Positions 26,828 through 53,155 of a stretch of 58,654 nucleotides of DNA are shown here, piece by piece; positions within the stretch are counted from its first letter, which is position 1, and each line of letters starts with the position of its first letter. The DNA comes from Pseudomonadota bacterium. GTDB taxonomy: Bacteria; Pseudomonadota; Gammaproteobacteria; Burkholderiales; Burkholderiaceae. The stretch is from positions 1-58,654 of the forward strand of contig JAKORH010000028.1 in assembly GCA_029777935.1 (NCBI GenBank), given 5' to 3'. A program made the position numbers and the translations under genes. The notes under the pieces were generated by a model that saw only the letters and a list, made by a program, of their open reading frames with translations, was not told the DNA's origin and did not search any database.

Positions 26828-27570
26828 TCGGCCCCGTTCGGTTTGCGGTCGAGCGGCCGCGGCGCATCGGCGAGCGCCTGCGCGCTGATCGGCTGCGCAT
26901 CGAACCTGCGCCGGCCGATCGGCACTGCGAAGCCGATGCGCTTGCGCAGGATGACGCCGACCGGGCAGACGTCGATCGCCTTGTCGGTCACCGCGATGTT
27001 CGTGTCGGCCAGGCGCCCCGACTCGCTGTTGACGATCAGGTGCTTGGTGATGCCGCGCCCCGACAGCGCGAACATGCCCTTGCCGTCGACCTCGCTCGAG
27101 GCGCGCACGCACAGCTCGCACAGGATGCAGCGGTTGAACTCGAGCAGGATGTCGGGGTGCGACGCGTCGACGGGGCGGTCCGGATAGAAGTGGTCGAACT
27201 GCGCGCTCACCATGCCGAGGTCGTAGGCGATCGCCTGCAGCCGGCAGTTGCCGCTCTTCTCGCACGACGGGCAGAAGTGATTGCCTTCGACGAACAGCAT
27301 CTGCACCAGCACGCGCCGCCGCGCGTTGACTTCGTCGGTGTCGCTCTCGACGTGCATGCCTTCCTGCGGCTGCGTGGTGCATGAAGTGATCCAGCGCCCG
27401 TCGGCTTTCACCGTGCACAGCTTGCAGCTTCCGTGCGGCTTGAACTCGGGGTGGTAGCACAGGTGCGGCACGTAGCGGCCCGCCGCGAGCGCGGCCTGCA
27501 CGATCGTCTGCCCCGGCGCGAACGGGACTTCGTCGCTGTCGAGCAGGAAGGTCGCCGCGGCCGTGTTCAT
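26824..27570 (-). CDS. hoxU: hydrogenase diaphorase small subunit (NuoG-like)
   Basis: Iron-sulfur subunit of 248 residues corresponding to the N-terminal part of NuoG. [2Fe-2S] ligands are Cys38, 49, 52 and 64; the His-Cys3 [4Fe-4S] cluster is His98, Cys100, 103 and 109; a further [4Fe-4S] site has Cys148, 151, 154 and 202. It passes electrons from HoxYH to the HoxF flavin. Overlaps hoxF by 4 bases (ATGA) and hoxY by 4 bases. Confidence 0.95.
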   Translation of the reverse strand: MNTAAATFLLDSDEVPFAPGQTIVQAALAAGRYVPHLCYHPEFKPHGSCKLCTVKADGRWITSCTTQPQEGMHVESDTDEVNARRRVLVQMLFVEGNHFCPSCEKSGNCRLQAIAYDLGMVSAQFDHFYPDRPVDASHPDILLEFNRCILCELCVRASSEVDGKGMFALSGRGITKHLIVNSESGRLADTNIAVTDKAIDVCPVGVILRKRIGFAVPIGRRRFDAQPISAQALADAPRPLDRKPNGAE

Positions 27571-29432
27571 TCGAGATCCGTCAGGTGCGCGCCGGCGTCG
27601 TCGCGGCCGGTCATTGCGCGCGCGCGGGCCAGCGCGCCGTCGAGGTCGAACGCCGGCTCGTAATCCATCGACACCAGTCGCTGCTCGTACGCCGGGCGGA
27701 AGCGCTTCAGCGTGTCGAGGATCGGGTTGCACGCCGTGTGGCCCAGACCGCAATGGCTCGCCGCCTGCAGCACCGCGTTCAATTCGCCGATCTGGGCGAG
27801 GTCGCGCGGCGAGCCCTTGCCGGCGGCGAGCTTGTCCATCAGGTCGCGCAGCAGCGAGGTGCCGACGCGGCACGGCGTGCAGAAGCCGCAGCTCTCGTGG
27901 GCGAAGAAGTGCGCGAAGTTGCGCGCCACTTCGAACATGTCGCGCGACTCGTCGAACACCATCATCGCGCCCGCGGTCGGCAGATCCTCGAACGCCAGCC
28001 GGCGGCCGAACTCGCCGGCGTCGATGCAGGTGCCCGACGGGCCGCTGACCTGCACCGCCTGCGTCATCTCTGCGCCGCATTCGTCGAGGACCTGTCGCAC
28101 CGTGACACCGAACGGATACTCGTAGATGCCCGGCCGCGCGCAGTCGCCCGACACCGACAGGATCTTGGTGCCGGTCGAGCGTGGCGTGCCGAAGCGCCTG
28201 TACCAGTCGCCGCCGTTGGCCGCGATCAGCGCCGCCGCGCAGAGGGTCTCGACGTTGTTGACGATCGTCGGGAACTTCAGGAAGCCGCTCGTGACCGGGT
28301 ACGGCGGCCGGTTGCGCGGGATGCCGCGCTTGCCTTCGAGCGATTCGATCAGCGCCGACTCCTCGCCGCACACGTACGCACCCGCGCCGAGGTGAATCTC
28401 GAGGTCGAACTCGAAATCGGGCTTGCCGCAGATGCCGCTGCCCAGCACGCCCTGCGCGCGCCGGCGCGCCAGCACTTCGTTCAACGGCGCCAGCAGATGG
28501 CGGTATTCGCCGCGCAGATAGATGAAACCCCTGGTCGCACCGACCACGTACGCGGCGACCGTCATGCCTTCGATCACGAGATCGGCATGGCGCGCCAGCA
28601 ATACGCGGTCCTTGAACGTGCCGGGCTCGCCCTCGTCGGCGTTGCACACGATGTACCGCTGCGACGCACGCGCGTCGCGGCACGCCTCCCACTTCAATCC
28701 GACCGTGAAGCCGGCGCCGCCGCGGCCGCGCAGCCTGGAGCGCTTGATCTCCTCGAGCGTCTCGACCGGTCCCTGCGCGGACACTTCGAGGCTTTCGCGC
28801 CACGAGCGCTGGCTCAACGCAGCCTCGGGGGCGCGCGCGCCGCGCGCGATCGCCGCGCGGATCGCCTCGCCCGGTGCCAGCGTGCTCGACAGGATCAGGT
28901 CGCGGCGGCGCACGTTGTCCTCGATCGCAAACAGCTCCGCCGGCCAGTCGTCGAGCGGCACCTGCTCGCGGATAAGCTGCGCGATGCGGTCGATGCGCTC
29001 GGTCGTCAGCCGCGCGATCGCACGGCCGTTGACGAGCAGCCCCGGCGCCTGGTCGCCCATGCCGGTGCACGAGGTCGTGTCGACCGACACCAGGTGGTCC
29101 TCCGACACCTTGCCGCGCTCGACCCACAACTGCGTGCACAGCCGCTCGAGCAGCGGCACGCTGCCCGCCATGCGGTCGATGATGTTGTCGGAGAAGCGGA
29201 CGCGGTAGCGCCCCGCCCGCTTCAAGTGCAGGAAGCTGTAGAAGCCGGCCACGCCCTCGACGCGCGCGCGCGGCAACTTCACGCGCTGCGCGATGCGTGT
29301 GATCGCCTCGGGCGGAATCCAGCCTTCCGGTTCCTGCGCCTCGCGCAGGATCTGCACGAGGTTAGTGCGCGCGGCACCGTAGCGATCGACGATCGCATCG
29401 ACACGCTCGAGGGCATTGGAGACTGCGGCCAT
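27567..29432 (-). CDS. hoxF: hydrogenase diaphorase large subunit (NuoE/NuoF fusion)
   Basis: NAD- and FMN-binding subunit of about 621 residues. The N-terminal NuoE-like domain (1-170) retains one Cys (TTSCTGMGDQAP) of the four NuoE ligands, so its [2Fe-2S] cluster is probably missing, as partly in Ralstonia HoxF. The NuoF-like domain has LRGRGGAGFTVGLKW (NAD), ADEGEPGTFKDR (FMN), GAGAYVCGEESALIES and the [4Fe-4S] motif SCGFCTPCRVG with a distal Cys in GHTACNPI. ATG at 29432 is used. First gene of hoxFUYHW, 80 bases downstream of the CsoR-like repressor gene on the same strand. Confidence 0.95.
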   Translation of the reverse strand: MAAVSNALERVDAIVDRYGAARTNLVQILREAQEPEGWIPPEAITRIAQRVKLPRARVEGVAGFYSFLHLKRAGRYRVRFSDNIIDRMAGSVPLLERLCTQLWVERGKVSEDHLVSVDTTSCTGMGDQAPGLLVNGRAIARLTTERIDRIAQLIREQVPLDDWPAELFAIEDNVRRRDLILSSTLAPGEAIRAAIARGARAPEAALSQRSWRESLEVSAQGPVETLEEIKRSRLRGRGGAGFTVGLKWEACRDARASQRYIVCNADEGEPGTFKDRVLLARHADLVIEGMTVAAYVVGATRGFIYLRGEYRHLLAPLNEVLARRRAQGVLGSGICGKPDFEFDLEIHLGAGAYVCGEESALIESLEGKRGIPRNRPPYPVTSGFLKFPTIVNNVETLCAAALIAANGGDWYRRFGTPRSTGTKILSVSGDCARPGIYEYPFGVTVRQVLDECGAEMTQAVQVSGPSGTCIDAGEFGRRLAFEDLPTAGAMMVFDESRDMFEVARNFAHFFAHESCGFCTPCRVGTSLLRDLMDKLAAGKGSPRDLAQIGELNAVLQAASHCGLGHTACNPILDTLKRFRPAYEQRLVSMDYEPAFDLDGALARARAMTGRDDAGAHLTDLE

Positions 29433-29512
29433 GCAGCCCAATACTCGCGCGGCAGCCTTGGTCGCGAATGACCGAGATCAACCAGGCGGCCGCCGCGCGC
29501 CGAGGTGTTGCT

Positions 29513-29791
29513 CTATCCCAGCTTCGCCAGCACGCGCGCCAGCCTTTCGATCCGCGCTTCCTGCTTCTCGCGCTGGTTGGCAGAGAACTGCGGGTGCTTG
29601 ATCGCGCAGGCCATCAGTTCGTAGAACGCGCGGTCGAGCGCCTTGCGCGCGGCGGTGAGCTGCTGCGCGATCTCCTCGCAGTCGGCGTTGTCCTCGACCA
29701 TGCCCTGCACGCCGCGGATCTGGCCTTCGACCCGCTTCAGGCGCAGCACGAGATCGCGGCGCGACTCGTCGGCGTTCTTCAGTTCGGTCAT
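29513..29791 (-). CDS. CsoR/CstR/FrmR-family transcriptional repressor (DUF156)
   Basis: Small all-helical repressor of 92 residues. LVLRLKRVEGQIRGVQGMVE is the DNA-contacting helix of the CsoR family. Cys38 is the conserved first thiol (NADCEEIAQQLTAARKAL). By hand alignment, the copper sensor has His at +25 and Cys at +29, and the persulfide sensor CstR has Cys at +29. Here there is Cys62 at +24 and His66 at +28. The ligand set is thus atypical. The gene closes an operon containing sulfide:quinone oxidoreductase and a DUF2892 protein, so a role in sensing sulfide or persulfide is likely. Two G-tract operators upstream fit this family. Confidence 0.88.
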   Translation of the reverse strand: MTELKNADESRRDLVLRLKRVEGQIRGVQGMVEDNADCEEIAQQLTAARKALDRAFYELMACAIKHPQFSANQREKQEARIERLARVLAKLG

Positions 29792-29798
29792 GGTCGTA

Positions 29799-30020
29799 TC
29801 ACGTGCAGGCGACGCGCGACTCGGGCACGCCCAGCTTCTTCAGCATCCAGCCCAGCGGACATGCATTGGTGAATCCGTACTGGAACAGGTTGAAGCCGAC
29901 GAAGGCGGTGAACGCCAGCCACCATCTGGATACGAAGATCGGGCTGCCTTCGATGCCGAGAGCGAGCGACAGCAGGATGAAGCTGCCGGCGAAGATGCGG
30001 ATCAGTCGTTCGACCGTCAT
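29799..30020 (-). CDS. DUF2892 (YgaP-like) membrane protein
   Basis: Protein of 73 residues with two hydrophobic helices (LIRIFAGSFILLSLALGI and WWLAFTAFVGFNLFQYGF) and the conserved NACPLGWMLKKLG tail. It matches the membrane domain that is often fused to or encoded beside rhodaneses, as in YgaP and Cst systems. Here it stands alone between the RND pump (3 bases) and the repressor (7 bases). No rhodanese domain is encoded in this operon. Confidence 0.88.
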   Translation of the reverse strand: MTVERLIRIFAGSFILLSLALGIEGSPIFVSRWWLAFTAFVGFNLFQYGFTNACPLGWMLKKLGVPESRVACT

Positions 30021-30023
30021 GGG

Positions 30024-33325
<3,302 letters not shown>

Positions 33326-33329
<4 letters not shown>

Positions 33330-34420
33330 CGCGCGGCCAGCAGCGGATTCAGTTGCACTCGCTCGCCGGCTGCCAGCCCCGCCAGCACCTCGAGCGCACC
33401 GCCGTCGACCGGATCGCCGACGCGGACCTGCCGCAGTTGCGGCTTGCCGTCGGCGGCGAGCACGCTGACGAGCGTCAGCTCGCCTCTGCGGATCAGCGCC
33501 TCGGCCGGCATCACGAGCTTCATCGCACTGCCGACCGGCAGCAGGATCTTGGCCGCGGTGCCTGGCACCACGCCGACGGGCAACTGCGCGGGCAGATCGG
33601 CGCGCACCTGCGTGGACAGCAGGCGCGGATCGGCCGCCGGCAGCACCGTGAGCTTGGCGGCGGCGACGGTGTGGCCGAGCGTCGGCAACTGCACGGTCGC
33701 GCGATCGGCGCGCGCCACGCGCGCCATCACGAACTGCGGCACCGCGCCCACCGCGCGCAACGCGGCCGGATCGAACACGTCGAGCATCGGCTTGCCGGGC
33801 GCGGCCAGCTCGCCCAGTTCCATCAACCGGCGCGAAACCACGCCGTCGATCGGCGAGCGCACCTCGGCGAAGCTGCGCGCAGTCAGCGCCTGGCTCGAGC
33901 CGGCGCGCGCCGCCTCGAGCGCCGCTTGCGCGGTCTTCAGATCGGCGTCGGCCTTGTCGAGCGCGGCCTGGCTGACGAAGTTGTTCTTGACCAGGCTCGC
34001 GGTGCGGTCGTAGTTCAGCTTCGCCTGCGCCAGCGCCGCCTCGGCCTGCGCGACGCTGGCGCGCGCGGCGCCGACCTGCGCGTCGGTCTCGCGCGTGTCG
34101 ATGCGCGCCAGCAGTTGGCCGCGCTTGACGCGGTCGCCGGCATCGACGAAGAACTGCGTGACGGTGCCGGCGATCTGCGCCGACACTGTCGCCTGCCGCA
34201 CGGCCTCGATCACTGCGTCGGCGGCATACACGTCGGCGACCGTGCGCAACTGCACCTCGGCAGTGGCTGGCGTCGCAGCGGTGACAGGCGTCGCGGCGGG
34301 GGCCAGCGCGTCGTTCCGCGCCGGCGCGCCCTTGTTCTGCGCATACAGCACGCCGCCCGCCGCGAGTGCGATTGCACCCGCGGCGGCGGCGATCAGGGTC
34401 CTGCGTTGCATGGTGGGCAT
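33326..34420 (-). CDS. RND periplasmic adaptor (membrane-fusion protein)
   Basis: HlyD/AcrA-type adaptor of about 364 residues. An N-terminal membrane anchor (RTLIAAAAGAIALAAGGVL) is followed by lipoyl half-motifs (AQIAGTVTQFFVDAGDRVKRG and RSPIDGVVSRRLMELGE, in order), an alpha-hairpin rich in Ala (about 110-175) and beta-barrel domains. It links the RND pump to an outer-membrane channel encoded elsewhere. ATG at 34420 is used; 34411 is also possible. A CsoR-type operator ends 34 bases upstream. Confidence 0.92.
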
Positions 34421-34453
34421 CCGGCGGGCGAGAGGTTTCTTCGAGGCCGAATG

Positions 34454-34469
34454 ATACCCTGGGGGGTAT
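34454..34469. promoter_or_regulatory. CsoR/CstR-type operator upstream of the RND genes
   Basis: ATACCCTGGGGGGTAT, a 16-base site with ATAC/GTAT ends and a central G/C tract, the hallmark of CsoR-family operators. It lies between the DUF302 gene and the adaptor gene, where an internal promoter would be expected. A similar site is present in front of sqr at 36283-36298. Confidence 0.65.
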
Positions 34470-34534
34470 ACACGAGGCGCGCCGGTGACGCCCTCTGTGA
34501 TGCGCCTCACGTATCGGGCGCCGGCGCGATTCGA

Positions 34535-34933
34535 TTACAGCGCCGCCATCACCCGCTGCAGCCGTGCCTTGACCTCGGCTGCCACCGGCGCGACCTCGGC
34601 GCGGTCGACGAGCTTCAGCACCGCTTCCGGGTCCATGAACTCGACCAGCACCTGACCCTTGTCGTTCTGCCGCACCACCACGTTGCACGGAAGCAGCAGG
34701 CCGATCTGCGGCTCGGCCGTCAGCGCCTGGTGCGCGAACGGCGGATTGCAGGCGCCGAGGATCCGGTACGGCAGCCCGTCGATACCGAGCTTCTTCTTCA
34801 GCGTCGCCTGCACGTCGATCTCGGTCAGGATGCCGAAGCCTTCCTTCGCCAGTTCCTGCGTGACCTTCTGGATCGCCGCGTCGAAGCCAAGCGCGACCGT
34901 CTTGCCGAAGCCGTATTTCACTTGAGTTGCCAT
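34535..34933 (-). CDS. DUF302 family protein
   Basis: Cytoplasmic protein of 132 residues with the DUF302 fold. Typical motifs are LAKEGFGILTEIDVQATLKKK, YRILGACNPPFAHQAL and GLLLPCNVVV, with two cysteines. The family has no defined reaction and often occurs with sulfur oxidation and heavy-metal genes. It starts 3 bases after sqr ends and is separated from the pump genes by 114 bases that carry an operator. Confidence 0.9.
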   Translation of the reverse strand: MATQVKYGFGKTVALGFDAAIQKVTQELAKEGFGILTEIDVQATLKKKLGIDGLPYRILGACNPPFAHQALTAEPQIGLLLPCNVVVRQNDKGQVLVEFMDPEAVLKLVDRAEVAPVAAEVKARLQRVMAAL

Positions 34934-34936
34934 GTC

Positions 34937-36214
34937 CTACACCTTTTCCTTCAGTTTGGTGATGCCGAGCGCACCCATCACGAACTTCTCGTAGTAGGGC
35001 TCCGAAGTGCCCCGCTTGAGTTTCCGGATGAAGTACTTCTCGAACGCGATCTTCGCGAGGTGCACCCACTTGCCCTCGCTGAACCAGTTGACGTTGCGCG
35101 GCGGGATCTGCGGCAGCGCCACGAACGCGATGCCGGTGTCGCCCATGTCGGCCAGGCACACCGCGTTCCACGTCGCCTTGTGCGACGGCTCCTTGCCGTC
35201 CATCTGCTCGCGGATGTTGTGCGCGGCCGCGGTGACCATCGACTCGATCATGAAGCCGGTCTTGGGCGCCCCCGTCGGCACCGGTGTGGCTTCCACCGGC
35301 GGGATCGCCACGGCGACGCCGACGCCGTAGATGTTCTTGTGAGTCGGGTTGCGCTGGTGTTCGTCGATCAGGATGAAGCCGCGCGGATTGGTCAGTCCCT
35401 CGACGCCGAACACCGCATCGACACCCTTGAAGGCCGGCAGCATCATCGAGTAGGCGAACGGCAGCACGTGTTCGCGCTTGACCTTGCCTTCGTCGTCGTG
35501 CTCGGTCACGTACATCTTGCCCGGTTCGACCTTGGTGACCTTGGCGTTGCAGATCCACTTGATGTGCTTTTCGCGCAGCGCGGATTCGAGCATCGACTTC
35601 GAGTCGCCGACGCCGCCCAGCCCCAGGTGGCCGATGTACGGCTCGCTCGTCACGAACGTCATCGGCACCTTGTCGCGGATCTTCCGGCGCCGCAGGTCCG
35701 TTTCCATGATGAACGCGAACTCGTAGGCGGGCCCGAAACACGAGGCGCCCTGCACCGCGCCGACCACGATCGGCCCCGGCGCCTTGACGAATGCGTCCCA
35801 TGCCGAGGCGCCTTTCTCCGCGTGGTCGACCGTGCAGATCGACTGCGTGTGCCCGTTCGGCCCCAGCCCTTCGATCTCGTCGAACGCGAGCTTCGGGCCC
35901 GTTGCGATCACGAGGTAGTCGTACGCGAGGCTCGCGCCGTCGTTCAGTTCGACGCGGTTCTCCTTCGGATGCACGCGCTTGACGCCGCGGCCGTCGTAGG
36001 CGATGTCCTTTTTCGCCAGGTACTGTGCGACCTCGAACTCGATGTCACTGCGCTTGCGCCAGTGCACCGCGACCCATGGATTCGACGGCACGAAGCTGTA
36101 ACGGTCGCCATAGCCGACGACCGTGACGCGATCTTCCGCACGCAGCAGTTCCTTCACTTCGTACGCCATCGGCAGGCCGCCAAGGCCCGCGCCCATTACC
36201 ACCACGTGTGCCAT
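34937..36214 (-). CDS. sqr: sulfide:quinone oxidoreductase
   Basis: Membrane-associated flavoprotein of 425 residues that oxidises sulfide to polysulfide and reduces quinone. The FAD-binding GAGLGGLPMAYEV is at the N-terminus. All three redox cysteines are visible at Cys127 (SICTVDHAEK), Cys159 (QGASCFGPAYEF) and Cys353 (NAVCLADMGDTG), close to positions 128, 160 and 356 of the Acidithiobacillus enzyme. The C-terminal amphipathic segment (KIAFEKYFIRKLKRG) would anchor it. ATG at 36214 follows AGGTGGAG. First gene of the sulfide operon, with an operator-like site 69 bases upstream. Confidence 0.94.
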   Translation of the reverse strand: MAHVVVMGAGLGGLPMAYEVKELLRAEDRVTVVGYGDRYSFVPSNPWVAVHWRKRSDIEFEVAQYLAKKDIAYDGRGVKRVHPKENRVELNDGASLAYDYLVIATGPKLAFDEIEGLGPNGHTQSICTVDHAEKGASAWDAFVKAPGPIVVGAVQGASCFGPAYEFAFIMETDLRRRKIRDKVPMTFVTSEPYIGHLGLGGVGDSKSMLESALREKHIKWICNAKVTKVEPGKMYVTEHDDEGKVKREHVLPFAYSMMLPAFKGVDAVFGVEGLTNPRGFILIDEHQRNPTHKNIYGVGVAVAIPPVEATPVPTGAPKTGFMIESMVTAAAHNIREQMDGKEPSHKATWNAVCLADMGDTGIAFVALPQIPPRNVNWFSEGKWVHLAKIAFEKYFIRKLKRGTSEPYYEKFVMGALGITKLKEKV

Positions 36215-36282
36215 GAATTCTCCACCTGGATTCCGCGGGGCGTGCACCTGCTTCGCACCGCGACCGGATCAAGCTACAGCGG

Positions 36283-36298
36283 ATACGGGGCGGGGTAT
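36283..36298. promoter_or_regulatory. CsoR/CstR-type operator upstream of sqr
   Basis: ATACGGGGCGGGGTAT shares ATAC-N8-GTAT ends, length, orientation and G-rich core with the site at 34454-34469. It sits in the only candidate promoter region of the operon. Binding by the CsoR-like protein encoded at 29513-29791 is inferred. Confidence 0.6.
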
Positions 36299-36311
36299 GT
36301 GACCGGGGTCA

Positions 36312-37844
36312 CTATTCCATCTTCGCGCCCGCGATCGCGGCATCGCGCGGCGACGAATCCTTCGCCAGCCGCGCGAGTTCCCGCGCCGCCGCTCGCAAAC
36401 GCCGCGCTCGCAGCTTCGCCATCGCGGCGCGCTGCCGTCGCGCGGCCCGCGCCGGCAACGTCGCGAGCAGATCGCGCGCGACCGCCAGATCGTTAAGCGC
36501 ACCGAGCGTGTCCTGCAGCGATGCCAAGTGCGCGCCGAGCGCGTCCGCGTACTCGCGCTGCAGCGCGCCGGCCAGCACGTCAATCGCGTACCGCAAACGC
36601 TTGGCGCGCACGCGCACGCGATGCTGGCGCGCCGGCGCGAGCCGCTCGAAACGGTCCGCATCGCGCAGCACGCGCTCGAGCGCCCGACCGATCGCCGGCG
36701 GCGCGAACTCGCGCAGCGCGATCGACGGCGGCGCCGGGGTTTCGGCCCACCGGGAAAGCTGCAGCGCCAGCCGCGCGAAGCGCGCACCCGCGAGCACCGT
36801 ACGCGCCCGCCGCAGCGCCTGCGCGCGGCGGCGCACCGCCGCAGCGCGCAGTTCGTCCGCGTGCCTTTCGGCCGAGTGCATTTCGCGCGGATTCGGCGCG
36901 AGCGCGGGCAGCGTCTGCAGCACGAACACGTCCCAGTCGCGCGCGGCGCCCAGCGCGCGCCCGAGCCAGCGCAGCTCGGCATCGAGCCGCGGCGGAAGGT
37001 CTGCTTCGTCGCGCAACAGCCGGATCGCCGAGCGCATGCGCCGCACCGCGACGCGAGCCTGGTGGATGAATTCCGGATCGTCGCCGCTGGATGTGCGGTG
37101 TGCGCCGTGCGCGTTGGCAAGGAGGATCGCGGTGCCGGTGCCGATGACCGCGCGCAGCGCCTCCGCGGTCGTGCGGCAACTCTTCAACGCGCCCGCGAAC
37201 GCCTTCGCGTTGGCCTTCACCGGCTGCGCTCCGCGCCCCTGCGCCAGCGCCACGCCGCGCGCGGCCTTCGAGTCGGCGTACGGCACCAGCGCCAGCGCCT
37301 TACTCGACCTGCCCGTGCCGACGAGTTCGAGCGCGAGCTGCCACAGCGCGGCCGCGTCGCCCGCCTTCAGCTCGAGTTCGAGTTCGCAAATCGGCGTCGA
37401 GCGTTCGCCGGCGACGATCTCGCCGCGGTCGAGCGCGATCTCGATCGCGCGATCGGCGGTAAACCACAGCGCGCGTTCGAAGCGGGTGCGGACCTGCGGC
37501 GCGATCTCGAGATCCGGCTGCACGCGCAGCAGCGTCGCCAGCGGCGTAGCGGCGAAGCGCGCGACGTCGAGGCGGCCGCCCGGCGCCGGCGTCTCCCATT
37601 CGCCGCGGCGCGCCAGCGCGGTCTGCGCGCCGAGCGTCTTCAGCGTCTGCAGCCAGCGTCGGCCGGCGCGGCGCACGCGCAGCGCGATGCCCTGCGCGGC
37701 GAGCGCGAAGCCCGCGCTGTCGTAGTAGACGGTCTCGAGCCGTTCGATCCGCGGCCGGCCGAAGCGCCGCAGCCGCTGCCGCAATCGCGCCACGTCGGCG
37801 GCGGTAACAGTGAGCTTCAGTTCGGTTTCGCGCGGCGCGTTCAC
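36312..37844 (-). CDS. CYTH and CHAD domain protein (inorganic triphosphatase-like)
   Basis: Protein of 510 residues. The N-terminal CYTH domain (1-200) has the EXEXK-like signature as ETELKLTV and ends in CELELELKAGD. The C-terminal CHAD domain (about 210-505) is helical, rich in Arg and conserved His (FIHQARVAVRRMRSAIRLLRDEAD). CYTH proteins such as E. coli YgiF hydrolyse inorganic triphosphate, and CHAD domains bind polyphosphate. It may act on polyphosphate metabolism. It is upstream of the sqr operon on the same strand, with an operator-containing gap. Confidence 0.92.
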   Translation of the reverse strand: MNAPRETELKLTVTAADVARLRQRLRRFGRPRIERLETVYYDSAGFALAAQGIALRVRRAGRRWLQTLKTLGAQTALARRGEWETPAPGGRLDVARFAATPLATLLRVQPDLEIAPQVRTRFERALWFTADRAIEIALDRGEIVAGERSTPICELELELKAGDAAALWQLALELVGTGRSSKALALVPYADSKAARGVALAQGRGAQPVKANAKAFAGALKSCRTTAEALRAVIGTGTAILLANAHGAHRTSSGDDPEFIHQARVAVRRMRSAIRLLRDEADLPPRLDAELRWLGRALGAARDWDVFVLQTLPALAPNPREMHSAERHADELRAAAVRRRAQALRRARTVLAGARFARLALQLSRWAETPAPPSIALREFAPPAIGRALERVLRDADRFERLAPARQHRVRVRAKRLRYAIDVLAGALQREYADALGAHLASLQDTLGALNDLAVARDLLATLPARAARRQRAAMAKLRARRLRAAARELARLAKDSSPRDAAIAGAKME

Positions 37845-46609: not shown

Positions 46610-47926
46610 GTGCTTGAATCGGGGGCGGGAACGACGCCGAGGTCAAGATCGGTCGTACTGAAATCGCGCATCGCACTCTTCGCCGTCACCGCCGCGGTCG
46701 CGTGCAGCGCCGCTTTCGCGCAGGACGCGCCGGCCGACTTGGGCGCCACGCTGCAGGGCCTGCTCGACTACGCGGCCGCGCACCAGCCCGAATTGCGCTC
46801 GATGCGTTATGAGGCCGACGCGGCCGCGCAACGCGTGTTGCCGGCCGGGAGCCTCTCCGATCCGATGCTGACCGTCGAGCTGCGCGACATCGACAACGGC
46901 GGCGCGTCGAGTCCGAACCTGCTGCCTGGCCGCGTCGGCAACACGCGCTACCAGGTGCGGCAGACGTTCCCGTCGTGGGGCAAGCGCGACGCGAAGCGCG
47001 ACGCCGCGCAGGCGCTGGCCGACGAAGCCGCGTATCGCACCGACGCGACCTGGACGGAAATCGCGCTGCGAATCAAGTCGGCCTACGCGCGCTACCAGCA
47101 GACGACCGAGAGCCTGGTCCAGTCGCGCGAGCTGCTCGAGCTGGTCAACCGGCTCGAATCGGTCGCGCAGGTGCGTTACGCGGGCGGGCTGGCCCCGCAA
47201 CAGGATGCGCTGCGCGCGCAGGTCGAGCGCACGTCGATGACGAGCGACATCGCGCTGCTCGAAGCCGACCTCGCCGCCACGCGCGCGCGCATCAACGGCC
47301 TGCTGGCGCGCGCCTCCGATGCGCCGCTCGCGAAACCGCGCGGCGACGCGGCGCTGCCGCCGCTGGCGCGCGTGAATCTCGCGGCGCTGCGCGACCGCGT
47401 GCTGGCGCGCAATCCGCAGTTGAAGGCGGAAGACGCGCGTATCCGCGCCGCCGAGAAGAACAAGGACGCGGTGTTCGCCAACCGCTACCCGGAGTTCACG
47501 TTCGGCATCGCGCCGATCCAGATGCGCAACCGCATCTCCGAATGGGAGCTGATGTTCGAAGTCAACATCCCGCTGCAGCAGTCGAGCCGCCGCGCGGACG
47601 AGCGCGAGGCGCTGTCGATGCTGGGAGCCGCGCAGGCGCGGCGCGAGGCGCAGTTGAACGACCTGCTGGCGCAACTCGGAGAAAGCGTGGCCGGCTTCGA
47701 AGCAGCCCACCGCGTCGAGACGCTGACGCGCACGAGCCTGTTGCCGCAGGCGGAAGTGACGTGGCAGGCCGCGCTCGCCGGCTACGAGACCGGCAAGGTC
47801 GATTTCACCACCGTGCTTGAGGCGCAGCGGCAGATCCGCCAGGCGCGGCTGACATTGATCCGCACGCGCGCCGAGGCACGGATGAGGCAGGCCGAGATCG
47901 AGCGGGTGCTGGGGGAAGAGCTATGA
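46610..47926 (+). CDS. cusC: TolC-family outer-membrane channel of the Cus system
   Basis: Outer-membrane efflux protein of about 438 residues. Two long helical repeats are visible, each with Gln/Glu/Ala-rich coiled segments (ELRSMRYEADAAAQRVL, LVQSRELLELVNRLESV, RVETLTRTSLLPQAEVTW). It forms the channel for CusBA. The start is uncertain: no ATG lies between the repeat array and the signal peptide (RIALFAVTAAVACSAAFA). GTG at 46610 is the nearest normal start; an upstream ATG at 46379 would read through the repeats. The stop overlaps cusB by 4 bases. Confidence 0.82.
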   Translation: MLESGAGTTPRSRSVVLKSRIALFAVTAAVACSAAFAQDAPADLGATLQGLLDYAAAHQPELRSMRYEADAAAQRVLPAGSLSDPMLTVELRDIDNGGASSPNLLPGRVGNTRYQVRQTFPSWGKRDAKRDAAQALADEAAYRTDATWTEIALRIKSAYARYQQTTESLVQSRELLELVNRLESVAQVRYAGGLAPQQDALRAQVERTSMTSDIALLEADLAATRARINGLLARASDAPLAKPRGDAALPPLARVNLAALRDRVLARNPQLKAEDARIRAAEKNKDAVFANRYPEFTFGIAPIQMRNRISEWELMFEVNIPLQQSSRRADEREALSMLGAAQARREAQLNDLLAQLGESVAGFEAAHRVETLTRTSLLPQAEVTWQAALAGYETGKVDFTTVLEAQRQIRQARLTLIRTRAEARMRQAEIERVLGEEL

Positions 47927-49473
47927 GGATTGCGGATTGCGGATTGCGGATTGCGCGGGGACGGGCGACGGGAGTGGCGCTGGCGGTCGTGGTCAGCGCG
48001 GCGGTCGCGGCGGCAGCGGGCTACTGGTTCGGAGCGCGCGGTGCGCATTCGACGGCGACACAGACTGCGGCGGCGCCGGCGGACAAGGGCGGCAGGAAGA
48101 TCCTTTACTACCGCAATCCGATGGGGCTGCCGGACACGTCGCCGACGCCGAAGAAGGACTCGATGGGGATGGACTACATCCCCGTGTACGAGGGCGAGGA
48201 CCAGGACGCCGGCTCGGGAATCAGGATCGGCACGGAGAAAGTGCAGCGGCTCGGCGTGCGCACCGAGAAGGTCGGCAAACGCGCGCTCGACGCGGTGGTG
48301 CGCGCGACCGGGCGGGTGGAGATCGACGAGCGGCGATTGAACACGATCACCGCGAAGTTCGAGGGCTACATCGAGCGGCTGCACGTGAACGCGACCGGGC
48401 AGTTCGTCGCCAGAGGCACCCCGCTCTTCGAGGCATACAGCCCGGAGCTGCTCGCCGCGCAGCGCGAATACGCGGTCGCGGCGCAGGGTCTGGCGCACGT
48501 GAAGGACGCCGACGCGCAGACGCAGGCCGGCATGAAGCGGCTGGCGGATTCGGCGCTGGCGCGGCTACGCAACTGGGACGTGACCGACGAGGACATCGCG
48601 CGCCTGGCCTCCGGCGGCGAGCCGAAACGTGCGCTGACGTTCCGCGCGCCCGCGGGCGGCGTGGTGATCGAGCGCAAGGCCACGCAGGGCATGCGCTTCA
48701 TGCCGGGCGAGATGCTGTACCAGCTCGCCGACCTGTCGAGCGTGTGGGTGATCGCCGACGTGTTCGAGCTGGATCTGGCGCGCGTGCGCGTCGGCCAGCC
48801 GGTGCAGGTGCGCTTCGATGCGTATCCGGGCGAGGCGTTCAAGGGCCGCGTGACCTACGTCTATCCGACGCTGAAAGAGCAGACGCGCACCGCGCAGGTC
48901 CGCATCGAACTTCCCAACCCCGGCGGAAGATTGAAGCCCGCGATGTACGCACAGGTCGAATTGCCGACCGCGGCAGCCGCGGTGCTCGCGGTGCCGAATT
49001 CGGCGGTGATCGACAGCGGGCGCCGCCGCGTGGTGCTGGTCGACCTCGGCAACGGCCGCTTCGAGCCGCGCGAGGTCAAGCTCGGCGCGCGCGGCGACGA
49101 GTACGTCGCGATCCTCGACGGCGTGAAGGAGGGCGAAAGCGTGGTCGTCGCCGCCAACTTCCTGATCGACGCCGAGAGCAACCTGAAAGCCGCGCTCGGC
49201 TCGCTCGGCCCGGTCGGCGCGCCCACACCGGCCGCAGGCAAGGTCGCGCACAGCGCGACCGGAACGCTGATCGACGTCGATGCGGCGAGCGGCGCGCTGC
49301 TGATCGCGCACGAGCCGGTGGCAAGCCTCGGCTGGCCGAAGATGCAGATGGAGTTCATGCCGGCCAACGACGCGATCGCCAAGGCCGTGAAGCCCGGCTC
49401 GCCGATTTCGTTCGAGTTCGTCGAGCGCAAGCCGGGCGAATGGGTGGTGACGAAGATCGAGGTGAGGCGATGA
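47923..49473 (+). CDS. cusB: copper/silver RND adaptor CusB
   Basis: Membrane-fusion protein of 516 residues. After an N-terminal anchor (VALAVVVSAAVAAAAGYWFG) comes a heavy-metal-binding segment (YYRNPMGLPDTSP and KKDSMGMDYIPVYEGE), then lipoyl, hairpin and barrel domains (FRAPAGGVVIERKATQGMRF, LADLSSVWVIADVFE). A C-terminal CusF-like domain (about 435-516) has QMEFMPANDAIAKAVKPG. Codons 2-11 are made of a 4x7-base repeat, so copy-number change would shift the frame. The start ATG overlaps the cusC stop. Confidence 0.92.
   Translation: MRIADCGLRIARGRATGVALAVVVSAAVAAAAGYWFGARGAHSTATQTAAAPADKGGRKILYYRNPMGLPDTSPTPKKDSMGMDYIPVYEGEDQDAGSGIRIGTEKVQRLGVRTEKVGKRALDAVVRATGRVEIDERRLNTITAKFEGYIERLHVNATGQFVARGTPLFEAYSPELLAAQREYAVAAQGLAHVKDADAQTQAGMKRLADSALARLRNWDVTDEDIARLASGGEPKRALTFRAPAGGVVIERKATQGMRFMPGEMLYQLADLSSVWVIADVFELDLARVRVGQPVQVRFDAYPGEAFKGRVTYVYPTLKEQTRTAQVRIELPNPGGRLKPAMYAQVELPTAAAAVLAVPNSAVIDSGRRRVVLVDLGNGRFEPREVKLGARGDEYVAILDGVKEGESVVVAANFLIDAESNLKAALGSLGPVGAPTPAAGKVAHSATGTLIDVDAASGALLIAHEPVASLGWPKMQMEFMPANDAIAKAVKPGSPISFEFVERKPGEWVVTKIEVRR
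47927..47954 (+). repeat. GGATTGC x4 tandem heptamer in the first codons of cusB
   Basis: Four perfect tandem copies of GGATTGC begin 4 bases after the first base of the cusB start codon. Seven is not a multiple of three, so loss or gain of one copy changes the reading frame. Related degenerate heptamers lie in inverse orientation after cusA. Confidence 0.9.
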
Positions 49474-49495
49474 GGACGCGCTGCGCTCGTACTTG

Positions 49496-49573
49496 CCCTC
49501 ACCCCCACCCCTCTCCCGGAGGGAGAGGGGCTTTGCATCCCTCTCCCTCCGGGAGAGGGACCGAGGGTGAGGG
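49496..49573. repeat. 78-base CCCTCACCC/GGGTGAGGG inverted repeat
   Basis: Fills most of the 121-base gap between cusB and cusA. Outer arms CCCTCACCC and GGGTGAGGG enclose two inner CCCTC/GAGGG hairpins. The element is almost the same as the copy at 58491-58569. It probably affects mRNA processing within the cus operon. Confidence 0.9.
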
Positions 49574-49594
49574 CCTGTCCTTGCGGGTCGACTC

Positions 49595-52500
49595 ATGCTT
49601 GAACGCCTGATCGCCTGGTCCGCGCGCAATCCGTTCCTGATCGCGCTCGCCACGCTGGCGGTCGTGTTCGCCGGCGTGATCGCGATCGTGCGCACGCCGC
49701 TCGATGCGCTGCCGGATCTGTCCGACGTGCAGGTGATCGTCTACACCGAATACCCCGGACAGGCGCCGCAGGTGGTCGAGGATCAGGTCACGTATCCGCT
49801 GTCGACCGCCATGCTGTCGGTGCCGAAGTCGAAGGTCGTTCGCGGCTTCTCGTTCTTCGGCGTGTCGTTCGTCTACGTGATCTTCGAGGACGGCACCGAC
49901 ATCTACTGGGCGCGCTCGCGCGTGCTCGAGTACCTGAATTTCGCCGCCTCGCGGCTGCCGCCCGGCGTATCGGCGCAGATCGGGCCGGACGCGACCGGCG
50001 TGGGCTGGGTCTACCAGTACGTGGTGCAGGCGAAGAACCGCACGCTGGCGGAACTGCGCACGCTGCAGGACTGGTACCTGCGCTACCAGCTCACCAAGGC
50101 GCAGGGCGTGGCCGAGGTCGCGTCGGTCGGCGGCTTCGTGCAGCAGTACCAGGTGATCGTCGATCCGGTGAAGCTGCGCGCCTACAACATCCCGCTGATG
50201 GCGGTCGCGCAGGTGATCCGCGACTCGAACCGCGACGTCGGCGGGCGCGTGGTGGAACTGGCCGAAACCGAGTACATGGTGCGCGGCCGCGGCTACCTGC
50301 GCAGCGCGGCCGACATCGAGGCTCTCGTCGTGCGCGCGGACAAGGGCACCGCCGTGCGCGTGCGCGACGTCGCGCGCGTCGAGCTCGGTCCCGACGAGCG
50401 GCGCGGACTGACGGAGTTGAACGGCGAAGGCGAAGTGGTGTCCGGCATCGCGGTGGCGCGCTTCGGCGAGAACGCGCTCTCCGTGATCGACAGCGTCAAG
50501 CAGCGGATCGACGAACTGAAGGCCGGGCTGCCCGGCGGCGTGACGATCCACGCCGTCTACGACCGCTCGGAGCTGATCAAGCGCGCGATCGGCACGCTCA
50601 AATCGACTCTGCTCGAGGAGTCGGTGATCGTGGCGCTGGTGTGCGTGCTGTTCCTGCTGCACGTCAGGAGCGCGCTGGTGGCGATCATCATGCTGCCCGT
50701 CGGCGTGCTGATCGCCTTCATCTGCATGCGGTGGCTCGGCATCAACTCCAACATCATGAGCCTGGGCGGGATCGCGATCGCGATCGGCGCGATGGTCGAT
50801 GCGGCGATCGTGATGATCGAGAACGCGCACAAGCACCTCGAACGGCTGCCGAGCGGCGCCAGTGACCCAAGTGCGCGAACGCTCGCGATCATCGAGGCCG
50901 GCAAGGAAGTCGGGCCGGCGCTGTTCTTCTCGCTCCTGATCATCACCGTGAGCTTCCTGCCGGTGTTCACGCTCGTGGCGCAGGAAGGACGCCTGTTCGC
51001 GCCGCTCGCGTACACCAAGACCTTCGCGATGGCAGGCGCGGCGCTGCTGTCGGTCACGCTGGTGCCGCTGCTGATGATCTGGCTGATCCGCGGCCGCATC
51101 CTGCCCGAGTCGAGGAACCCCGTGAACCGCGTGCTGATCGCGCTGTACCGGCCCGTCATCGCGTGGGTGCTGCGAAACAAGCTGCTGACGATCGCGCTTT
51201 CGCTCGTCGTCGGCGTCGCCTCGATCTGGCCGGCGACGAAGCTCGGCACCGAGTTCATGCCGACGCTGAACGAGGGGACGCTCTTCTACATGCCGACCTC
51301 GCTGCCCGGCATGTCGGTCACGAAGGCCGGCGAACTGGTACAGACGCAGAACAAGATCATCAGGAGCTTTCCGGAGGTCGAATCGGTGATCGGCAAGGCC
51401 GGTCGCGCCGCGACCGCGACCGACCCGGCGCCGCTGGAGATGTTCGAGACAGTGATCAACCTGAAGCCCGAGTCGCAGTGGCGTCCGGGCATGAACATCG
51501 ACAAGCTGATCGCCGAGATGGACCGCGCGCTGCAGTTCCCGGGAGTCGCCAACTCCTGGACGATGCCGATTCGCGCGCGCATCGACATGCTGTCCACCGG
51601 CATCCGCACCCCGATCGGCATCAAGGTGTTCGGCTCGAACCTGGCGGAAATGGAGCGCGTGGCGCGCGAGATCGAGACGGTGGTGCGCAACGTTCCGGGC
51701 ACCACCAGCGCGTACGCGGAGCGGCTGACCGGCGGCTACTACCTCGACGTGGTGCCCGACCGCGCGCAGCTCGCGCGCTATGGCCTTTCGATCGGCGCGC
51801 TGCAGGACGTGGTCGCCACCGCGCTCGGCGGCGAGATGGTCACGACCACCGTCGAGGGGCGCAACCGGTTCGGCGTGATCGTCCGCTATCCGCGCGACGC
51901 GCGCGCCGATCCGCAGCGGATCGAGCGCGAGGTGCTGGTGCCGATCATGAGCGAGTCGGGACAGCCGCCGGCGATGGTCCCGCTCGGGCAGCTCGCGCGC
52001 GTCGAGCTAGTGCAGGGGCCGCCGCAGATCCGCACCGAGAACGCGTTGTTGAGCGCGTACATCTACGTCGACATCCGCGGCCGCGACATCGGCGGGTATG
52101 TACGCGACGCGCAGCAGGCGGTGCGCGAGAACGTCAACCTGCTGCCCGGCATGTACATCACCTGGAGCGGCCAGTTCGAGTATCTCGCGCGCGCGCTCGA
52201 GAAGCTGAAGATCGTCGTGCCGCTGACGATCGGCATCATCTTCGTGCTGCTGTACCTGAACTTCCGCCGCGTCACCGACACGCTGATCGTGATGCTGTCG
52301 GTGCCGTTCGCGCTGATCGGCGGCATCTGGCTGCTGTGGTGGCTCGGCTACAACCTGAGTGTCGCGGTGGCGGTCGGCTTCATCGCGCTGGCGGGCGTGG
52401 CCGCCGAGACCGGCGTGGTGATGCTGATCTACCTCGACAGCGCGTGGCGCGAGATCCGCGAGCAGCGCGAGTACGAGCGCAAGGACGCGACCGTCGCTGA

Positions 52501-52750
52501 CCTGTATGCCGCCGTGATGGAAGGTGCGGTCGAACGCGTGCGGCCGAAGATGATGACGGTGGTCGCAATCATGGGCGGCCTCTTGCCGATCATGTGGTCG
52601 ACCGGCACCGGATCGGAAGTGATGCGCCGGATCGCCGCGCCGATGGTCGGCGGCATGGTGTCGTCGACCGTGCTGACGCTCGCGGTCATCCCCGCGATCT
52701 ATGCGCTCGTTATGCAGTGGAAGCTGAGGACCGTGACGCGTGATTCGTGA
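49595..52750 (+). CDS. cusA: copper/silver RND transporter CusA
   Basis: HME-type RND pump of 1051 residues. TM1 is NPFLIALATLAVVFAGVIAI, and TM4 carries GGIAIAIGAMVDAAIVMIENA, the CusA-type signature with the essential Asp. The periplasmic region includes KLGTEFMPTLNEGTLFYMP and RIDMLSTGIRTPIGIKVFG with Met residues as expected for Cu(I)/Ag(I) relay. The C-terminal half ends in TVLTLAVIPAIYALVM. It exports Cu(I)/Ag(I) with CusB and CusC. The stop lies within a degenerate heptamer tract. Confidence 0.95.
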   Translation: MLERLIAWSARNPFLIALATLAVVFAGVIAIVRTPLDALPDLSDVQVIVYTEYPGQAPQVVEDQVTYPLSTAMLSVPKSKVVRGFSFFGVSFVYVIFEDGTDIYWARSRVLEYLNFAASRLPPGVSAQIGPDATGVGWVYQYVVQAKNRTLAELRTLQDWYLRYQLTKAQGVAEVASVGGFVQQYQVIVDPVKLRAYNIPLMAVAQVIRDSNRDVGGRVVELAETEYMVRGRGYLRSAADIEALVVRADKGTAVRVRDVARVELGPDERRGLTELNGEGEVVSGIAVARFGENALSVIDSVKQRIDELKAGLPGGVTIHAVYDRSELIKRAIGTLKSTLLEESVIVALVCVLFLLHVRSALVAIIMLPVGVLIAFICMRWLGINSNIMSLGGIAIAIGAMVDAAIVMIENAHKHLERLPSGASDPSARTLAIIEAGKEVGPALFFSLLIITVSFLPVFTLVAQEGRLFAPLAYTKTFAMAGAALLSVTLVPLLMIWLIRGRILPESRNPVNRVLIALYRPVIAWVLRNKLLTIALSLVVGVASIWPATKLGTEFMPTLNEGTLFYMPTSLPGMSVTKAGELVQTQNKIIRSFPEVESVIGKAGRAATATDPAPLEMFETVINLKPESQWRPGMNIDKLIAEMDRALQFPGVANSWTMPIRARIDMLSTGIRTPIGIKVFGSNLAEMERVAREIETVVRNVPGTTSAYAERLTGGYYLDVVPDRAQLARYGLSIGALQDVVATALGGEMVTTTVEGRNRFGVIVRYPRDARADPQRIEREVLVPIMSESGQPPAMVPLGQLARVELVQGPPQIRTENALLSAYIYVDIRGRDIGGYVRDAQQAVRENVNLLPGMYITWSGQFEYLARALEKLKIVVPLTIGIIFVLLYLNFRRVTDTLIVMLSVPFALIGGIWLLWWLGYNLSVAVAVGFIALAGVAAETGVVMLIYLDSAWREIREQREYERKDATVADLYAAVMEGAVERVRPKMMTVVAIMGGLLPIMWSTGTGSEVMRRIAAPMVGGMVSSTVLTLAVIPAIYALVMQWKLRTVTRDS

Positions 52751-52799
52751 TCCGTGGTCCGTCGCTTGCACAATCCGCAATCCTCAATCCGAAATCCCA
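52740..52799. repeat. degenerate heptamer tract between cusA and cusF
   Basis: GTGATTC, GTGATCC and GTGGTCC run across the cusA stop. Then AATCCGC, AATCCTC, AATCCGA and AATCCCA units follow at 52772-52799. GCAATCC, the inverse of the cusB heptamer, occurs exactly at 52777-52783. Confidence 0.7.
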
Positions 52800-52813
52800 A
52801 ACGAGAGGCCTCG

Positions 52814-53155
52814 ATGAAAACACTTCACCTCCTTCTTGCCGCCGCGCTCGTTGCGCCGGCAATGCCCGCGCTGGCGCAACACAGCGGTCACGGGACGGCC
52901 ACGACTGCGCCCGCAACCGCGACCAAATCGGCCGAACTGACCGACGGCGAAGTGCGCCGCATCGACAATGCGCGCGGCACGGTGCTGCTCAAGCACGGCG
53001 AGATCAGGAACATCGGCATGGGCGCGATGACGATGAGCTTCAAGTTCAAGGACCCGAAGATGGCCGAGGGTCTGGCGGTCGGAGACAAGGTGAAATTCGC
53101 CGCCGAGCAGAAGGGTGAGGACCTGATCGTCACTTCGATCAAGAAGGTCAACTGA
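52814..53155 (+). CDS. cusF: CusF-type periplasmic copper-binding protein
   Basis: Small exported metallochaperone of 113 residues. The signal peptide ends ALAQ and the OB-fold domain follows. By spacing, E. coli ligands His36, Met47 and Met49 are His61, Met72 and Met74 here (KHGEIRNIGMGAMTMSF). The Trp44 position is Met69. It would pass Cu(I)/Ag(I) to CusB. ATG at 52814 was chosen for the signal peptide. Last gene of the cus operon. Confidence 0.9.
   Translation: MKTLHLLLAAALVAPAMPALAQHSGHGTATTAPATATKSAELTDGEVRRIDNARGTVLLKHGEIRNIGMGAMTMSFKFKDPKMAEGLAVGDKVKFAAEQKGEDLIVTSIKKVN

Follow-up and report, generated by a model that had tools for sequence, protein, structure and literature searches.

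RESULTS

A six-gene operon with sqr, an RND pump and a CsoR-family repressor

We analyzed a 58,654-nucleotide contig of a Pseudomonadota bacterium of the Burkholderiaceae (JAKORH010000028.1, assembly GCA_029777935.1; the whole stretch is called the window here), focusing on an apparent sulfide oxidation operon with its own repressor. Six genes lie in series on the minus strand: sqr, encoding a sulfide:quinone oxidoreductase (SQR); a DUF302 gene; genes for the adaptor and the permease of a resistance-nodulation-division (RND) pump; a DUF2892 gene; and a csoR-like gene. From sqr to csoR, the intergenic distances in the sequence are 3 bases, 114 bases, an overlap of 4 bases, 3 bases and 7 bases. 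The genes, their order and strand, their gaps and the single 114-base gap are as described in the initial annotation.

The sqr product (34937-36214, minus strand; 425 amino acids; Pyr_redox_2) aligns over residues 2-424 with solved sulfide-quinone reductases of the 3sz0/3t31 group, its best solved match (E value, 4.6e-168), which we take to be from A. ferrooxidans. Its cysteines in the segments ICTVDHAE, GASCFGP and NAVC-ADMGD line up with those of this group, with all three kept; they presumably correspond to the catalytic cysteines numbered 128, 160 and 356 in type I SQR. The three catalytic cysteines, together with the flavin adenine dinucleotide (FAD) fold over the same alignment, place the protein among the type I enzymes. 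The DUF302 protein (34535-34933, minus strand; 132 amino acids; PF03625, 97.1 bits) resembles TT1751 (1j3m; E value, 6.7e-30), a solved "conserved hypothetical protein."

The periplasmic adaptor, or membrane fusion protein (33326-34420, minus strand; 364 amino acids), matches TIGR01730 with 173.4 bits versus 94.9. The permease (30024-33329, minus strand; 1,101 amino acids; ACR_tran, 480 bits) is HAE-like, and we take the DD pair in its segment LVDDAIVVVEN to be the HAE-like motif. On the CusA/CzcA model TIGR00914 it scores 234.6 bits, under the cut-off of 701.45, and so does not belong with the CusA/CzcA metal pumps; by NCBIfam model scores it is nearer to multidrug than to metal RND models. 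A small YgaP-like transmembrane protein with a DUF2892 domain (29799-30020, minus strand; 73 amino acids; PF11127, 42.5 bits versus 25.3) precedes the repressor (29513-29791, minus strand; 92 amino acids; PF02583, 75.1 bits versus a cut-off of 22.8). No NCBIfam model gave a subfamily name above its cut-off for either the repressor or the permease.

The repressor carries a displaced cysteine pair

The PF02583 score and a predicted three-helix fold place the repressor in the CsoR/RcnR family. In a single-chain model (mean predicted local distance difference test score, 87.6), the helices span residues 2-33, 38-65 and 77-89. Foldseek ranks CstR structures first by E value; since the template modeling scores of copper CsoR and FrmR are as high or higher, the fold does not decide the type of repressor. 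The protein has two cysteines of interest, C38 and C62, which are 24 residues apart (C-X23-C). By alignment with copper CsoR, whose ligands we take to be Cys36-His61-Cys65, the first cysteine is present (C38), the His61 position is Ala63 and the Cys65 position is Pro67; the protein is thus not a copper CsoR. Nor does it belong with FrmR or RcnR, as the histidine that follows the C62 column (presumably H60 in those proteins) is Ala63. The initial annotation had cited CstR as a known controller of sulfide detoxification. Membership of the window repressor in CstR is ruled out by the spacing, 24 residues rather than 29 (assuming that the CstR pair is C31/C60), whereas the CstR trait of linkage to sulfide oxidation genes is shared by the window operon and the loci of relatives.

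The C62 column holds a glutamate in L078, a C-X28-C protein, and no cysteine in the five solved relatives compared. Among 17 relatives, C38 is invariant and C62 nearly so, the sole exception being an incompletely entered row. In the predicted model, the single long helix 38-65 has C38 at one end and C62 at the other, so that any bridge would have to be between subunits; a bridge of this kind is described for CstR (PMC9918477).

To place the fingerprint in context, genome contigs were scanned with the window repressor, and the best 80 of 162 relatives were taken as repressor-found loci. Sulfur-type genes were counted as SQR, DUF2892, rhodanese, persulfide dioxygenase (PDO) or DUF302. The C-X23-C pair occurs in 63 of the repressors; 51 of these are near both an RND gene and a sulfur-type gene, 8 near a sulfur-type gene only and 4 near neither. 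CstR spacing is present in nine repressors (five near a sulfur-type gene) and neither spacing in another nine (one near such a gene). C62 is missing from seven Collimonas relatives (L007-L012 and L016), near which the screen showed no sulfur genes; a changed function is possible in these.

Two matching sites and their conservation

Two candidate operators of the form ATAC-N8-GTAT flank the sqr-DUF302 pair. Operator 1, ATACGGGGCGGGGTAT, lies at 36283-36298, 68 bases before the sqr start codon, and operator 2, ATACCCTGGGGGGTAT, at 34454-34469, inside the 114-base gap and 33 bases upstream of the adaptor start codon (ATG at 34420). As the initial annotation had noted, they match each other. They are the only two occurrences in the 58,654 bases (0.04 expected), a number reached in 0 of 100 shuffles. 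The looser TAC-N8-GTA has six matches in the window versus 0.81 expected, both sites among them. The two sites agree in their ends and spacing and differ in their 8-base centers. A promoter scan of the window gave no sigma-70 match at either site. Operator 1 is abutted by an inverted repeat with 6-base arms (GTGACCCCGGTCAC, 36299-36312), which also abuts the stop codon of a CYTH/CHAD gene.

In the relatives, the 450 bases preceding the adaptor domain were searched for sites, five RND loci with no adaptor in the locus being dropped; 59 loci with the same pump and no csoR gene in the fetched stretch served as comparison. Of 45 repressor-linked RND loci, 38 have ATAC-N8-GTAT there (34 of 39 when only complete 450-base regions are counted); none of the 59 comparison loci or 19 paralogues has it, and the reversed pattern gives zero. 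The Fisher p value for presence of the site is 3.5e-21 (34/39 versus 0/58), which should be taken as a guide, since the loci are related. The 8-base spacer stands alone: other spacers of 2-16 bases give at most 2 matches in the 45 upstream regions, and other 4-base arms around an 8-base spacer give at most 6. The ends of the sites are invariant by definition of the search. There are 37 different sequences among 39 sites, indicating that ends and spacing are kept while the center drifts. The G/C tract, given in the initial annotation as a known trait of CsoR/CstR-bound sites, is ruled out as the defining feature of these operators, as cores such as TAGGTATA, TAGTGGGA and TCCCTTAA occur; what is conserved is the pair of ends and the spacer, not the center.

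A second TAC-N8-GTA is located 21-23 bases (about two helical turns) upstream in 25 of the 38 loci. A promoter match of the TTG-N3/TATA type overlaps the site in 19 of the 45 upstream regions; at any position, matches of this type are present in 5 of 59 RND-only regions and in 0 of 19 paralogue regions. Judging from the sequences, the overlap is the position that a repressor would be expected to take. Adaptor, RND, SQR-family, DUF2892 and csoR genes occur together in 34 of the 80 repressor loci. The typical order in Rhodoferax and its kin is adaptor-RND-SQR-DUF2892-csoR, with ATAC-N8-GTAT right before the adaptor. In eight Rhodoferax-type loci (L020, L027, L048, L051, L063, L069, L070 and L072), a second, distant SQR-like gene (22-25% identical) stands directly before csoR.

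The fingerprint and the site recur without the pump

A survey of the family was carried out independently of RND genes. Of 274 genomes of the class, 37 contain PF02583 matches, 41 in all; 40 of these were retrieved together with their flanking sequence, and the residue classes of the proteins were assigned by alignment. The C-X23-C pair is present in 7 of the 40 proteins, and the exact site occurs within 9 kb in 6 of these 7 loci versus 3 of the 33 others (Fisher p, 1.4e-4). In L285 it lies between an SQR-like gene and PDO-SulP-rhodanese; in L281, before the csoR of an SQR-TauE-PDO locus; in L284, before csoR; and in L261, at both ends of a SulP gene that adjoins a PDO-like gene. In L282 it precedes soxC in a sox cluster that ends soxB-csoR-SulP (L282:3478-12145); SoxC, SoxY and SoxB score over the model cut-offs, and SoxA, SoxX and SoxZ were named by eye. 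This csoR at the end of a sox cluster, with a site 5' of soxC, parallels the control of sox by the CsoR-family repressor TTHA1953 in Thermus. In L283 (9481-11305), a C-X23-C csoR is divergent from the gene for subunit I of cytochrome bd oxidase (cydA), an enzyme that tolerates sulfide, and the site lies between the two. The identities of SoxB, SoxC, SoxY, cydA, the L285 SQR-like and PDO-like proteins and the L261 SulP were checked; the remaining names are profile matches or were assigned by eye. With cydA counted, 5 of the 7 loci are near persulfide dioxygenase, SQR-like, sox or cytochrome bd genes, so the C-X23-C fingerprint goes with sulfur oxidation also where there is no RND pump.

We conclude that both window sites are very probably operators of this repressor, as the initial annotation had proposed; the comparison of loci (38/45 versus 0/59 and 0/19) supports this. 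Sites of similar form could bind other proteins, and the two sites might instead belong to another regulator, the csoR-like gene being a passenger. But the site is absent from the 59 RND loci with no csoR in the fetched stretch, and it follows C-X23-C csoR genes to pump-free sox, SQR-PDO and cydA loci; we consider the passenger explanation very improbable.

The same survey bears on a metal-responsive operon, in which the CsoR protein would sense copper or nickel and the RND pump would export the metal. PF02583 includes CsoR, RcnR and InrS, copper CsoR has TACCC...GGGTA-like sites, and a CusBA/CusF-like pump lies at 47923-53155 of the same window, all of which would fit such an operon. However, the CsoR ligands His61 and Cys65 are replaced, as described above, by Ala63 and Pro67. 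Among the surveyed proteins, 16 of 40 have the C-H-C ligand set, and by the screen used 0 of these have a sulfur gene within 8 kb; 2 (L259 and L269) have a site, 4-6 kb off. The operon permease falls short of the CusA/CzcA cut-off (234.6 versus 701), and the metal pump of the window has no site. We regard a metal-responsive operon as improbable.

One clade of RND pumps is tied to DUF2892 and SQR

For the pump, 59 loci were fetched of 74 class rows scoring above 1,000 bits. Six of the 59 have SQR, DUF2892, CsoR or DUF302 within 6 kb, and a broadened DUF2892 model found the same 4 loci of the 59 and added none. A sulfur link of the RND orthologue as such is thereby ruled out; the link is carried by one clade and two separate cases.

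In the tree, the repressor-linked pumps used and the independently found, DUF2892-linked L151 form one clade of 23 rows. Its support by the Shimodaira-Hasegawa-like approximate likelihood ratio test (SH-aLRT) is 97 with 85 rows and 86 with 107 rows, when 30 Burkholderiaceae pumps were added, all of which fall inside. The permease of L001 was not included in the trees, as its profile match came out in two pieces. The window pump falls in this clade, with a support of 18 for its placement within it. DUF2892 or SQR adjoins the pump in 28 of 31 clade loci not chosen via the repressor versus 5 of 58 orthologues outside; 53 of these 58 have no SQR, DUF2892, CsoR or DUF302 nearby. The exact site occurs in 1 of the 30 Burkholderiaceae pump loci, the flanks of which extend to at most 1.5 kb, so that a more distant csoR would be missed (wider flanks were retrieved for 8 of 113). 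Outside the clade, one group (L155, L160 and L165) combines DUF2892 with rhodaneses, SQR or DUF302, and L155 and L160 also carry an ArsR protein for which BigR is the best equivalog, at a score under the cut-off. The other group (L171 and L172) has the order SQR-adaptor-RND. From these comparisons, the pairing of RND with DUF2892 extends beyond this repressor.

L001, whose repressor is 67% identical, is the nearest relative among the collected genomes; it has the order CYTH/CHAD gene (51% identical), one site, adaptor, RND, DUF2892, csoR. No sqr-DUF302 pair lies between the CHAD gene and the adaptor, the place where the window has this pair with its own copy of the site. The pump-DUF2892-repressor part, which L001 has along with the site, is therefore probably the core, which SQR joined or from which it was lost in L001.

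Related pumps also occur on plasmids with a different repressor. Of 53 plasmid records with the pump, 6 were examined, five alphaproteobacterial (42-44% identity) and one from Vibrio (54%). DUF2892 is near the pump in 5 of the 6 and an ArsR repressor in 4; the Alloyangia record has neither. The ArsR protein of L323 was named by eye. Of the seven DUF2892 proteins annotated in the plasmid loci, the DUF2892 model detects five, which gives one per pump that has DUF2892 nearby. The Paracoccus denitrificans pump cluster includes an MBL-fold hydrolase, YeeE, a sulfur transferase and an SQR-like protein. The Methylocella tundrae plasmid has the order adaptor-RND-ArsR-DUF2892-SQR-DUF2892-DUF302, and its SQR and DUF302 proteins are 62% and 45% identical to those of the window. 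In view of these clusters, the window operon resembles a module run elsewhere by BigR-like repressors, with a CsoR protein in their place. RND pumps near such ArsR repressors were already pointed out in 2025 (PMC12423496). The proposal that the RND pump is built into the regulon is retained, the comparisons supporting it as an integral part; the pump is not peculiar to CsoR regulons, given its relatives in sulfide clusters with ArsR/BigR-like repressors.

DISCUSSION

We conclude that the window operon is probably a sulfane-sulfur-responsive regulon under a CsoR-family repressor, with the RND pump as an integral part. The assignment to sulfur, already made in the initial annotation, gains support from the recurrent sulfur-gene neighborhoods of the relatives. 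In its reduced dithiol form, the repressor would occupy TAC-N8-GTA operators at the promoters of both transcription units, sqr-DUF302 and adaptor-RND-DUF2892-csoR, and would shut them off, csoR itself included. As H2S is oxidized, persulfides or polysulfides would modify the C38/C62 pair, any bridge joining two subunits; the modified repressor would leave the DNA, and the operon would be expressed. SQR would convert sulfide to sulfane sulfur and hand the electrons on to quinone. The products would be handled by the RND pump and its adaptor together with DUF2892 and DUF302; the pump would most likely clear the periplasm or membrane of a toxic by-product or of a compound loaded with sulfane sulfur.

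The gene content, the sites and their conservation, the cysteine fingerprint and the recurrent sulfur neighborhoods are observed. From here we infer the repression, the inducer, the bridge and the pump cargo, and the cargo is the weakest point of the scheme. A sulfur compound is suggested because the pump clade is often tied to DUF2892 and sulfur genes; the broader family urges caution.

An unlikely alternative is that the repressor senses thiol stress or electrophiles (disulfides, aldehydes or quinones) and has co-opted sulfur genes, the RND system being a broad drug or solvent pump. The closer fit of the permease to multidrug than to metal models, the 53 of 58 outside-clade orthologues with no SQR, DUF2892, CsoR or DUF302, and the OsmC-like gene in 9 of the 80 repressor loci (a count from a crude gene caller) are consistent with it, as is the behavior of TTHA1953, which reacts in vitro to Cu(II) and H2O2 and not to NaHS (PMC10318464). 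Yet the recurrent partners are SQR, PDO, rhodanese, TauE and sox genes, and pumps of this type are also found repeatedly alongside BigR-like ArsR proteins, characterized relatives of which sense sulfane sulfur (PMC12423496).

Several observations weigh against a sulfane-sulfur-responsive regulon of this form or limit its reach. In five loci with complete upstream sequence, the exact site is missing in front of the adaptor: L057 and L063 show variants that differ by one base, and in L004, L005 and L006 the site is found before csoR instead, the order in L005 and L006 being csoR, rhodanese, TauE, PDO, DUF2892, adaptor, RND. The 45 loci are not independent, because they were drawn from 80 similar to the repressor, mostly from Rhodoferax. 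No screened sulfur gene was seen near the C-X23-C proteins of L017, L023, L024 and L050 (4/63), nor any sulfur gene in L279 and L284 (2 of the 7 surveyed C-X23-C loci). The clade test mixes 1.5-kb (Burkholderiaceae) and 6-kb flanks, and for Burkholderiaceae it covers the 30 highest-scoring loci out of 113 matches. A search of the L001 genome, whose completeness is not established, gave no type I SQR (best match, 28%), so SQR is not an obligate partner. The searchable material yielded no solved or tested precedent for a C-X23-C pair. Across 8 genomes, ATACT-N7-GTAT is as frequent as its reversed control (43 strand matches each); in G001 the motif has 5 places versus 1 for the reversed form, and of the 4 others, 3 were inspected and none is clearly a promoter. 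Use of the motif as a genome-wide regulon marker is ruled out by this parity and by the inspection of G001. An extra site, ATACTCCCGGCGGTAT, occurs in the genome of Rhodoferax ferrireducens isolate A7 (the genome of locus L033) at L195:1501, between a moeA-like gene and a gene for a 400-amino-acid membrane protein (names assigned by eye).

The proposed system overlaps in part with several known ones. CstR of Staphylococcus aureus and Streptococcus pneumoniae and YrkD of Bacillus licheniformis belong, like the window repressor, to PF02583. CstR-type regulators control sqr/rhodanese/PDO/TauE-type genes (PMC10318464), and YrkD represses an sqr-pdo cluster, with elemental sulfur treatment ending its binding to its sites (PMC9918477). 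In contrast to these, the window cysteines are 24 rather than 29 residues apart, the second CstR cysteine position is Pro67, and an RND pump is part of the operon. TTHA1953 of Thermus thermophilus is also a CsoR-family repressor with two cysteines (C39/C68, 29 residues apart); it controls sox genes and needs TAC/GTA inverted repeats with no G/C tract, in the operator form TACNNTACNNNNGTANNGTA, and no RND system is among the targets named for it (PMC10318464, accessible text). The window sites do not have this form, being TAC-N8-GTA. The ArsR systems of the BigR/SqrR/sHdrR type have the same kind of gene set and RND pumps in the neighborhood, and pumps beside sqr, pdo, rhodanese and TauE are named as likely targets of such repressors (PMC12423496); their repressor fold is unrelated, whereas the window repressor is CsoR-type with an operator of its own. 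Copper CsoR, the nickel regulators RcnR and InrS, and FrmR share family and fold with the window repressor, which is without their metal or formaldehyde ligand sets.

The disposal of surplus sulfane sulfur is largely an open question, and RND systems are usually interpreted as exporters of drugs or metals. A lineage of pumps that is paired with DUF2892 and recurs in sulfide clusters, together with repressors of two unrelated families, offers a specific candidate that can be tested. The literature searched holds no description of an RND system dedicated to sulfane sulfur export. Nor did we find a publication on such a CsoR/SQR/RND/DUF302/DUF2892 operon, judging by titles and the openings of abstracts, with subscription journals mostly outside the coverage. 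We put forward only tentatively, as a rather doubtful joint proposal from sequence comparison, that the pump might be a dedicated sulfane-sulfur exporter and that the C-X23-C repressors might be a second, proteobacterial persulfide-sensing solution within the CsoR family. The cargo could then be polysulfide, a low-molecular-weight persulfide or SQR-made membrane S0, and the repressors might also run sox and cytochrome bd genes. The cargo of the pump would be the interesting discovery. The displaced cysteine pair offers a sequence test for CsoR-like proteins that databases name metal-sensitive or copper-sensing, and TAC-N8-GTA is a defined operator form with which to seek targets of C-X23-C repressors.

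Two other features of the window may be mentioned. The separate CusB-CusA-CusF-like metal efflux system (47923-53155, plus strand), which lacks ATAC-N8-GTAT, scores 1,232 bits on the CusA/CzcA model, over the cut-off; the CusB and CusF models stay below theirs. Directly downstream of csoR (27567-29441, minus strand) is a fused NuoE/NuoF-like gene, followed by a HoxU-like reading frame (assigned by eye), and this stretch is possibly a soluble hydrogenase or formate dehydrogenase module.

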